Shown: one piece after another, positions 9,440-11,515 of the stretch
How positions within the stretch are numbered: position 1 is the stretch's first letter
Layout: each line of letters begins with the position of its first letter
From: Pararhodobacter aggregans
GTDB lineage: Bacteria; Pseudomonadota; Alphaproteobacteria; Rhodobacterales; Rhodobacteraceae
Reading direction: 5' to 3'
DNA: 64,000 bases
Assembly: GCF_003075525.1 (NCBI RefSeq)
Contig: NZ_QDDR01000001.1
Location: 558,001 to 622,000, forward strand
Translations under genes and position numbers: made by a program
The notes under the pieces: model-generated
What the model was told of the DNA's origin: nothing
Databases searched by the model: none
What the model saw: only the letters and a program-made list of their open reading frames with translations

Positions 9440-9683
9440 GGGGGGCCAGCCCCCTCGACTCCCGGCCGCGCCACGGGCGCGGCGTTCGCGGCTGAAACGC
9501 GCCACTGGCGCGTTTCCGAGACGCCGCTCACCCCCCGCCAAAGGGGACCCTCGGGCCCCCTTTGGAAACCCCCGAGGATATTTTTTGGAACAAAGATGAA
9601 GATTAAGAGGGCGTTAACCTGCCCATCTTCGTTCTGCAAATATCCTGCGGGAGGGTCCGGGAGGGTGCAAAACCCTCCCGGGG
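9440..9683 (+). repeat. Composite palindromic repeat, copy 1
   Basis: Intergenic element made of several inverted repeats. In order: GGGGGCCAGCCCCC and a CGCGCC/GGCGCG pair; an extra perfect 23-base palindrome at 9494-9516 not found in the other copies; a CCAAAGGGG/CCCCTTTGG hairpin (about 9538-9564); the core palindrome (about 9572-9650) with arms CCGAGGATATTT...AACAAAGATG and CATCTTCGTTCT..AAATATCC around GCGTTAACC; then a CGGGAGGGT/ACCCTCCCG hairpin to 9683. Near-identical cores occur at 30.8, 34.0, 38.3 and 62.6 kb in the same orientation. This copy fills most of the gap before the leuA promoter; no gene is seen in it. Confidence 0.9.
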
Positions 9684-9753
9684 CTCGCCGCGGGCGGGCG
9701 GTTGCGGCCCCCCGGATGGGCGCATTTTCACTTTTCTTTTCCGAAAGCCCCCG

Positions 9754-9759
9754 TATAGT
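9754..9759 (+). promoter_or_regulatory. Predicted -10 element of the leu leader
   Basis: TATAGT, seven bases before the ATG of the leader peptide, which places the expected transcription start at or within a base of that ATG. The -35 region is T-rich (CTTTTC at about 9731-9736) rather than consensus. Position and sequence are seen; promoter activity is inferred. Confidence 0.55.
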
Positions 9760-9766
9760 CCGGCCC

Positions 9767-9862
9767 ATGAACCGCACGCGCCCCCTTGATGTCCTGAGCC
9801 TGCTGGCCTCCCCGGCCCGGCCCTTGCGCGCGCGCGGTCTCCTGCTCCTTAGCCTCCTCTGA
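9767..9862 (+). CDS. leuL: Leucine-rich leader peptide of leuA
   Basis: 31-residue ORF starting MNRTRPLDVLSLL and ending GLLLLSLL. 11 of 31 residues are Leu, with six Leu codons among the last seven sense codons (9839-9859: CTC CTG CTC CTT AGC CTC CTC). It lies 84 bases upstream of leuA, and its TGA is inside the left arm of a perfect hairpin. This is the layout of a transcription-attenuation leader peptide that senses charged tRNA-Leu. There is no Shine-Dalgarno sequence, and the predicted promoter places the transcript start at the ATG, so it is probably leaderless. A longer in-frame start at 9596 is rejected because it would run through the repeat element and the promoter. Confidence 0.75.
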   Translation: MNRTRPLDVLSLLASPARPLRARGLLLLSLL

Positions 9863-9905
9863 GCGTGCCCCCGGGCGCGACCGCTCAGAGGTAGCCAGCG
9901 CCCGG
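9856..9905 (+). promoter_or_regulatory. leuA attenuator: two mutually exclusive hairpins
   Basis: Hairpin A: perfect 10-bp inverted repeat CCTCTGAGCG (9856-9865) with CGCTCAGAGG (9882-9891), containing the leader stop codon. Hairpin B: perfect 8-bp pair CCGGGCGC (9871-9878) with GCGCCCGG (9898-9905). B's left arm lies in the loop of A, and A's right arm lies in the loop of B, so they cannot coexist. Ribosome position on the Leu codons would choose between them. No U-run follows B, so a Rho-dependent or translational mechanism cannot be excluded. Confidence 0.65.
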
Positions 9906-9946
9906 ATACGACGCTAAAGGACACCAAGGACAGGAAAGATTTTCCC

Positions 9947-11515
9947 ATGACGGACGCAGCCAAAGCCCAAGATCATGTCTTGATCTTCGACACCACCCTG
10001 CGCGATGGCGAGCAATCGCCCGGCGCCACCATGAGCCATGACGAGAAGCTGGAGATCGCCGGCCTCCTGGACGAGATGGGGGTGGACATCATCGAGGCGG
10101 GGTTCCCCATCGCCTCGGAGGGCGATTTCGCCGCCGTTTCGGACATCGCCCGCAATTCCCGGAACTCGGTCATCTGCGGTCTGGCGCGGGCCAATTTCGC
10201 AGACATAGACCGCTGCTGGGAAGCGGTGAAGCATGCCGCGAAGCCGCGCATCCACACCTTCATCGGCACCTCGCCCCTGCACCGCGACATCACCGCGCTG
10301 GATCAGGAGGGGATGATCGAGAAGATCGCCGCCACCGTGGCCCATGCTCGCAACCTCTGCGACAATGTGCAATGGTCGCCGATGGATGCGACGCGGACCG
10401 AGCATGAGTATCTCTGCCGGGTGGTGGAAACCGCGATCAAGGCGGGTGCCACGACGATCAACATCCCCGATACCGTCGGCTACACCGCGCCGCGCGAAAG
10501 CGCCGACCTGATCCGCATGTTGCTGGAGCGGGTGCCGGGCGCCGACCGCATCGTCTTCGCCACGCATTGCCACAACGATCTGGGCATGGCGACGGCCAAC
10601 AGCCTCGCCGCGGTCGAGGCGGGCGCGCGGCAGATCGAATGCACGATCAACGGTCTGGGCGAGCGCGCCGGCAACACGGCGCTGGAAGAGGTGGTGATGG
10701 CGATGCGGGTGCGCAACGACATCATGCCCTATCAGACCGGGATCGACACGACGAAGATCATGCATCTGTCGCGCCGGGTGAGCCAGGTCTCGGGCTTTGC
10801 CGTCCAGTACAACAAGGCGGTGGTCGGCAAGAACGCCTTCTTGCACGAATCGGGCATCCATCAGGATGGCGTGCTGAAGAACGTCCAGACTTTCGAGATC
10901 ATGCGCCCCGAGGATATCGGCCTGACCTCGAAGAACATCGCCATGGGCAAGCATTCGGGCCGCGCGGCGCTGCGCGCCAAGATGGCCGAGCTGGGCTATG
11001 ATCTGGGCGACAACCAGCTGAAAGACGTCTTCGTGCGGTTCAAGGCCTTGGCCGACCGCAAGAAAGAGGTCTATGACGACGACCTGATCGCGCTGGTCGC
11101 CGATACCTCGGCCTCGGGCGGGGACGATCATCTCCAGGTCCGCAAGCTGCGCGTGGTCTGCGGCACCGAAGGCCCGCAGGAGGCCGAGCTGACGCTGGCC
11201 GTGGGCGGCGAGGAGAAATTCGTCGATGCCACGGGCGACGGGCCGGTCGATGCCTGTTTCAACGCGGTGAAGATGCTCTATCCGCACAGTGCCAAGCTCG
11301 ACCTCTATCAGGTCTCGGCCGTGACCGAGGGCACCGATGCCCAGGCCACGGTCAGCGTGCGGCTCAGCCGCGACGGGCGGGTCTATACCGGGCAATCGGC
11401 GGATACGGATACCGTCGTCGCCTCGGTCAAGGCCTATGTCAACGCGCTGAACCGGATGCATGCCGGGCAGGGGCGGGCCAACAATTCGGCGCTGCAGACC
11501 TCGGCCGCCGGGTAG
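9947..11515 (+). CDS. leuA: 2-isopropylmalate synthase
   Basis: 522-residue LeuA: acetyl-CoA plus 2-oxoisovalerate to 2-isopropylmalate, first committed step of leucine synthesis. N-terminal catalytic barrel with FDTTLRDGEQSPG (substrate/metal-binding Arg-Asp), the metal-binding THCHND, and NGLGERAGNTALEE. The C-terminal regulatory domain (about 390-510, DDHLQVRKLRVVCG, AKLDLYQVSAVTEG) is present, so feedback inhibition by leucine is likely. AGGAAAG precedes the ATG. It is preceded by a leucine-rich leader peptide and alternative hairpins, so expression is probably tuned by leucyl-tRNA charging. A perfect palindrome follows the stop. Confidence 0.96.
   Translation: MTDAAKAQDHVLIFDTTLRDGEQSPGATMSHDEKLEIAGLLDEMGVDIIEAGFPIASEGDFAAVSDIARNSRNSVICGLARANFADIDRCWEAVKHAAKPRIHTFIGTSPLHRDITALDQEGMIEKIAATVAHARNLCDNVQWSPMDATRTEHEYLCRVVETAIKAGATTINIPDTVGYTAPRESADLIRMLLERVPGADRIVFATHCHNDLGMATANSLAAVEAGARQIECTINGLGERAGNTALEEVVMAMRVRNDIMPYQTGIDTTKIMHLSRRVSQVSGFAVQYNKAVVGKNAFLHESGIHQDGVLKNVQTFEIMRPEDIGLTSKNIAMGKHSGRAALRAKMAELGYDLGDNQLKDVFVRFKALADRKKEVYDDDLIALVADTSASGGDDHLQVRKLRVVCGTEGPQEAELTLAVGGEEKFVDATGDGPVDACFNAVKMLYPHSAKLDLYQVSAVTEGTDAQATVSVRLSRDGRVYTGQSADTDTVVASVKAYVNALNRMHAGQGRANNSALQTSAAG

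Follow-up and report, generated by a model that had tools for sequence, protein, structure and literature searches.

A conserved leucine-codon leader with a putative pseudoknot upstream of leuA in Alphaproteobacteria resembles the actinobacterial LEU element

The window analysed here is a 64,000-nt stretch of the Pararhodobacter aggregans contig NZ_QDDR01000001.1, in which leuA is preceded by a short leucine-rich open reading frame (ORF) and a series of complementary segments. Re-reading of the window upheld the preliminary description of this ORF, which consists of 31 sense codons followed by TGA, extends from an ATG at 9767 to 9862, ends 84 nt before the leuA ATG (9947), and encodes the peptide MNRTRPLDVLSLLASPARPLRARGLLLLSLL with 11 leucines, six of them in the last seven residues. 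The two stems described downstream were likewise perfect (A, 9856-9891; B, 9871-9905), and the TATAGT hexamer seven bases 5' of the leader ATG was confirmed at 9754-9759. A third predicted pairing (stem C), absent from that description, joins the leucine codons to the leuA initiation region. The features of the locus are as follows.

9731-9736, forward strand: -35-like hexamer CTTTTC, 17 nt from the -10 element; a similar block at such spacing in 87 aligned relatives
9754-9759, forward strand: -10 element TATAGT, 7 nt from the ATG; leaderless start predicted at 9767
9767-9862, forward strand: leader peptide ORF, 31 aa with 11 Leu; Leu kept while third codon positions change freely
9839-9859, forward strand: Leu codon cluster CTC CTG CTC CTT (AGC) CTC CTC
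9846-9853, forward strand: putative base stem C, 5' arm TCCTTAGC, inside Leu/Ser codons; covaries with GCTAAGGA-type partners in relatives
9856-9865, forward strand: stem A, 5' arm CCTCTGAGCG, containing the stop codon (9860-9862)
9871-9878, forward strand: stem B, 5' arm CCGGGCGC, in the loop of A (putative pseudoknot)
9882-9891, forward strand: stem A, 3' arm CGCTCAGAGG, 10 bp, perfect with the 5' arm
9898-9905, forward strand: stem B, 3' arm GCGCCCGG, 8 bp, perfect with the 5' arm
9913-9921, forward strand: putative 3' arm of base stem C, GCTAAAGGA; pairs over 8 bp with a single A bulged out, and in this species does not form an uninterrupted helix
9925-9941, forward strand: leuA Shine-Dalgarno (SD) region CAAGGACAGGAAAGATT, complementary to Leu codons 9836-9851
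9947-11515, forward strand: leuA, 2-isopropylmalate synthase, the regulated gene, with HMGL-like, HCS_D2 and LeuA_dimer domains

The window holds 278 ATG-started ORFs of 10-60 aa, none of which has at least five leucines in its last seven residues; the leader itself falls outside this set, its reading frame extending without a stop to an ATG further upstream at 9596. The comparison across relatives that had been suggested as a check was run on leuA loci from the genus and from named genomes (99 loci, counting that of the window, at ≥55% identity), of which three had less than 100 nt of upstream DNA, leaving 96 testable loci. A leader was accepted when an ATG-started ORF with at least three leucines in its last eight residues lay shortly 5' of leuA or of the gene preceding it, and such an ORF was present at 91 of the 96 loci, so that the Leu leader is kept in relatives. 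The five ORF-negative loci were also searched with an RNA model (R1), for which an alignment of the element (A1, 79 rows) was used: L013 and L066 hold the element, L104 gave a weak match (E 0.009) and L107 an unconvincing one (E 0.12), and at L097 the element was not found by this model. The 91 loci less three from Hyphomicrobiales form the close-relative set of 88 loci, all 88 of which use TGA as the leader stop codon. Leucine occupies codons -7, -6 and -5 before the stop at 72, 83 and 83 of them, respectively, with entropies of 1.67-1.91 bits at the third positions of these codons versus 0.18-0.80 bits at positions 1 and 2; this freedom at the third positions of kept Leu codons indicates selection on the leucine codons themselves. 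The N-terminal parts of the leaders vary in sequence and in length (13-38 aa). A real, conserved and leuA-specific leader lies upstream of leuA.

The placement of the promoter was examined at the 87 loci with enough upstream DNA. A match of at least 5/6 to TATAAT or TATAGT, 7 or 8 nt before the ATG, was found in 63 of the 87 relatives, as against a mean of 1.05 and a maximum of 7 same-spacing matches in 500 shuffles, a tally that is biased because the leader ATG had been chosen with the -10 element in the score. This bias is largely avoided by a frame-blind test at the 88 loci accepted by the leader-ORF criterion, in which a -10 element and an ATG 5-9 nt apart were allowed in any frame: such a pair was present at 72 loci and absent at 16, and all 72 ATGs were in frame with the Leu run, the expectation being one third. 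SD-like tetramers precede the leader ATG in 2 of 87 loci. No consensus sigma-70 promoter was returned by a scan of 9600-9960, where the -35 region is not TTGACA-like; a conserved A/T-rich block (AATTT) lies about ten bases upstream of the CTTTTC block (9725-9741 in the window, and in relatives). Judged from promoter placement, the leader transcript is very probably leaderless in the close-relative group, as had been proposed from the single sequence. This placement is not general outside the close relatives, and by inspection a purine-rich stretch lies 5' of the ATG in the three leaders from Hyphomicrobiales.

The arms of the two stems follow one another in the order A5-B5-A3-B3, with the 5' arm of B inside the loop of A, so that A and B, which had been thought mutually exclusive, could form together as an H-type pseudoknot; this helix order is compatible with the pseudoknot by which the LEU element is recognized. 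Both stems covary across relatives, in answer to the earlier question of compensatory changes. In a partner-swapping test, in which each 5' arm was scored against its own or its relatives' downstream sequence (91 loci, 2000 permutations, kinship kept), stem A scored 26.45 with its own partner versus 25.04 with the best swap and stem B 19.89 versus 18.15, and for either stem 0 of 2000 permutations reached the observed mean. Stem A is also far beyond chance when compared with shuffled 3' windows (mean 12.9, 99th percentile 21.5), while stem B in a single locus is within chance (mean 19.9; shuffled mean 13.7, 99th percentile 21.5); since the search takes the best helix (7-12 bp for A and 5-11 bp for B across the 91 loci), the presence of stem B alone is weak evidence. 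Of the 790 cells that stem A occupies in A1 (79 rows), 98.1% are paired and 19 show two-sided changes, versus 2.5 in shuffles; the number of stem A pairs with a two-sided change (3) is unexceptional, being reached in 49 of 500 shuffles. The stem letters of the putative compact pseudoknot are strongly conserved.

For stem C, the duplex between Leu codons 9836-9851 and the SD region at 9925-9941 in the window was calculated at -13.9 kcal/mol. Paired segments in the relatives include TCCTTAGC/GCTAAGGA, CTACTAAGC/GCTTAGTAG and TTCTTACGCTT/AAGCGTAAGAA, and further out TCCTTCGA/TCGAAGGA or GCTCCTTAT/ATAAGGAGC. Own partners gave -12.49 kcal/mol versus -10.39 kcal/mol for the best swap across the 91 loci, with 0 of 2000 permutations reaching this value; the class-wide test gave -12.86 versus -10.68 for swapped partners (sd 0.29; 0 of 2000) at 74 of 77 class loci, after removal of L132, which gave an empty window, and of L207 and L173, where no leader was found. 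The helix is strong and uninterrupted in no more than 40 of the 88 loci from close relatives and 43 of the 74 from the class. The 3' arms of the 40 close-relative helices end at a median of 18 nt before the start codon, often just upstream of the SD, and lie 0-90 nt from stem B; at 21 of the 43 class loci the 3' arm ends 4-20 nt 5' of the leuA ATG, and 19 of these 21 arms contain AAGG. An SD-like tetramer is found near the leuA start at only 60 of 88 loci. Where another ORF stands before leuA (L053, L059 and L068, the last with an ORF of 55 aa), the 3' arm of C ends 5-7 nt before the start of that ORF.

Nested folding, which is unable to represent a pseudoknot, lent no support to the mechanism proposed below. 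The minimum-energy nested fold of the window includes stem B and the pairing of Leu codons with the SD, and leaves out stem A; for the strand 9836-9960 the z score was only -1.96, with 7 of 200 shuffles folding as well. When the leader was masked as by a stalled ribosome, mean SD openness rose from 0.507 to 0.644, with an increase in 55 of 81 loci. A shuffled leader hid the SD equally well (0.499, P=0.40), leaving specific masking of the SD unsupported by nested folding, and in the window itself masking of the leader lowered SD openness from 0.477 to 0.301, the opposite of what is proposed below.

The RNA models were then used across the class. R1 matched 24 of 385 genomes, the window's own included, and all 24 sites stand 5' of leuA and share its strand; within the genome of the window, the leuA site alone reached significance. 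A second model (R2; 32 rows, comprising 22 R1 matches and ten named loci) matched 82 of 385 alphaproteobacterial genomes, and all 82 sites again precede leuA in its own orientation. Fifty-eight of these genomes had no R1 match; some of them may be of the same species as the ten named alignment loci. The element was found in 66 of 277 sampled alphaproteobacterial genera, providing enough sequence diversity for a covariation test of each helix. Misses of R2 are not absences, since in two genomes of the window's own family without an R2 match (G553 and G710) the element was recognized by eye. The 59 matches in a draw of 398 genomes from the phylum, genomes of the class among them, all fell in the window's own family (25) or class (34). 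The Rfam models gave nothing relevant at the element, at gathering score or at E≤5, in the window and at seven relative loci. Both the architecture of the element and its specificity for leuA are well supported.

The class loci differ from the close relatives at the end of the leader, which is mostly L-R-L-x-x-P: the last residue is proline in 72 of 77 class leaders and the middle leucine is replaced by arginine in 47 of 77, with the codon CGA in 45 (three of the 77 leaders being misassigned), so that there are fewer Leu codons there. At some class loci this CGA codon is itself part of the pairing with the leuA SD region. Among 76 class genomes, 21 exceed the cut-off of TIGR00970 and thus have the other LeuA type; TIGR00970-type alphaproteobacterial leuA genes (L231 and L237) can also have Leu leaders, that of L231, read by eye, being MLRLTTLRLIG. 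In pSymB of Sinorhizobium meliloti, a 41-aa ORF with SLLLLGLIRG has its ATG 7 nt after TATAGG. A protein of 117-118 aa is encoded between element and leuA at L053, L059, L083, L114 and L117, and the L059 copy is a Cupin_2 protein. Two of these loci (L114 and L117) are R1 matches with a cupin gene in this position, and where such a gene intervenes the element fronts that gene first. Large replicons of Paracoccus and a 17.9-kb plasmid of Phaeobacter inhibens also carry leuA of the window's type; the leuA copy of Paracoccus denitrificans (L238) carries the element, which makes the mechanism testable in that species.

Taken together, these data describe a cis-regulatory RNA of LEU-element type that is specific for leuA and probably acts by translational attenuation. 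Transcription would begin at or next to the AUG of the leaderless Leu-rich ORF, as the promoter suggests. As long as no ribosome is stalled on the leader, the Leu-codon segment would pair with the leuA initiation region (stem C) beside the A/B pseudoknot, and closure of stem C would keep leuA translation low. A shortage of charged Leu-tRNA would make a ribosome stall on the Leu codons, where it would occupy the 5' arm of C and so free the leuA SD region; judged by the usual ribosome footprint, a ribosome whose A site held the first Leu codons would be expected to shield the 5' arm of C without obstructing stem A. With plentiful leucine, the ribosome would reach the UGA inside stem A and depart, allowing the RNA to close again. 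That the Leu codons are complementary to the initiation region of leuA points to control when translation begins and not at an intrinsic terminator of transcription, and translational attenuation would account for the missing U-run. The rarity of U-runs, this complementarity, and the position of the C arm before another first ORF favour control of leuA translation.

Control of transcription by Rho, or by pausing of RNA polymerase, is the alternative that survives best: the translation state of the leader and the pseudoknot would together decide whether transcription stops before leuA. The Leu codons, the stop codon within a stem and the absent U-run would fit such a mechanism equally, as would the variable distance from stem B to the 3' arm of C, and Rho is raised for terminator-less cys leaders in PMC1262725. 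It leaves unexplained, however, why the Leu segment should be able to pair with the leuA initiation region, or with that of another first ORF at three loci, and why this pairing of Leu codons and initiation region covaries. Counter-evidence comes from nested folding blind to the pseudoknot, from the many loci where the C helix is weak or interrupted or where no SD-like tetramer was found near leuA, from the smaller number of Leu codons outside the close relatives, and from the Streptomyces coelicolor mutation data cited in PMC1262725. On the balance of the evidence, we consider translational attenuation the probable mechanism and a Rho-type mechanism unlikely.

The RNA could instead be the binding site of a protein or ligand, as proposed for the LEU element and the ML1624 helicase, the peptide being incidental. 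A putative compact pseudoknot with strongly conserved letters would suit a binding site, and a protein was argued for in PMC1262725; the same paper places close homologues of the proposed protein in Actinobacteria alone, whereas the element is present here. An incidental peptide is also hard to reconcile with Leu codons kept with free third positions, which argue for the ribosome as sensor over the actinobacterial helicase, and with a promoter-placed ATG that is in frame at 72 of 72 loci, making this reading improbable. Nascent-chain arrest is known from TnaC, which responds to tryptophan. An arrest peptide at leuA, whose nascent chain (L-R-L-x-x-P or LLLLSxL) would itself stall the ribosome upon leucine, would account for the recurrent proline and arginine outside the close relatives, but the last residues are also fixed by pairing in stem A and the N-terminal parts vary, and we regard such arrest as very improbable. 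No more credible is classical intrinsic-terminator attenuation with two competing stems, the 'classic attenuation logic' of the preliminary description, which has in its favour the control codons of the leader ORF and the perfect pairing of both stems: the absence of a U-run after either stem, already remarked there, was confirmed in the window, TTTT occurs within 12 nt 3' of stem A or B at 2 of 88 loci, the single terminator-like site in a scan of 9600-9960 lies elsewhere (9609-9624) and none lies at the stems, A and B are compatible as a pseudoknot, both stems covary, and the third pairing reaches the leuA initiation region.

Among known systems, the rhizobial trp attenuator had been named as a parallel; closer ones are the actinobacterial LEU element and the leuA leader of Streptomyces lividans. 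The LEU element upstream of leuA was described by Seliverstov et al. (2005; PMC1262725), whose text gives its components as a leader with a Leu run, a pseudoknot and a base stem formed by Leu codons with the leuA SD, leaves the mechanism open while proposing a protein, cites mutation data from Streptomyces coelicolor that do not fit classical attenuation, and reports that close homologues of the ML1624-type protein are not found outside Actinobacteria. In the literature searched, the LEU element is this 2005 prediction in Actinobacteria, with the mechanism unsettled. The window element has the same three components, as predicted from its sequence, likewise stands upstream of leuA, and likewise is without other attenuator parts. 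The two differ in the stop codon, which lies in the loop of the first stem in Microbacterium (L232) and inside the 5' arm of stem A in the window, and in the type of LeuA, the actinobacterial genes having been found with a TIGR00970-type LeuA, whereas the window LeuA scores 128.8 bits against that family's cut-off of 697.4 bits. When applied to five actinobacterial leuA upstream regions, R2 matched Microbacterium, whose leader is MQFGLLLLSCRDESSD, and Nonomuraea, whose leader ends similarly, each immediately 5' of leuA and at a low score of 23.0 bits (E 7.8e-4 in 31 kb); R1 found the same two sites among four actinobacterial regions at low scores of 17.7 and 16.6 bits (E 0.003 and 0.006, respectively). 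R2 gave no match upstream of leuA in Nocardia, Tsukamurella or a Streptomyces plasmid copy, and short Leu-rich ORFs lie upstream of leuA in Nocardia and Tsukamurella.

LeuL1 of S. lividans (MRFGLLLLSCRGEGL) is, according to PMC8079986, a leaderless leader peptide without a typical Rho-independent terminator. It shares with the window a Leu leader before leuA, the lack of a typical terminator and, by prediction for the window, a leaderless transcript; it differs in being actinobacterial and shorter, and in having its start mapped by RNA-seq, that of the window being predicted. The rhizobial rnTrpL/peTrpL system, an attenuator that yields a dual-function sRNA (PMC10117765), has, as is predicted for the window, a leaderless leader peptide in an alphaproteobacterium, with Trp instead of Leu and, in the window, no U-run. 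The cysS leader motif uORFC-8-2 of Rhodobacterales, which has Cys codons and an intrinsic terminator stem (PMC8632094), is like the window a candidate for ribosome-mediated attenuation in the same order, and is unlike it in its Cys codons, its gene cysS and its terminator. No description of the element in Alphaproteobacteria was found in the literature searched, which covered few subscription papers, and one may be in print; the parts available of PMC5784534, PMC4046766, PMC4117421, PMC4842269 and PMC3616915 were not found to mention it.

By this comparison, the window element resembles the LEU element in its architectural features and may act like one, a likeness that may stem from shared descent or from convergence. 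We tentatively entertain the further possibility that the Leu codons are both sensor and lock (an anti-Shine-Dalgarno), such that a stall would directly unmask leuA, and that this arrangement is ancient or has spread horizontally, occurring in Alphaproteobacteria and Actinobacteria with two LeuA types. If true, a self-masking sensor built on the Leu-codon segment would be shared by both groups, across the two types of the enzyme.
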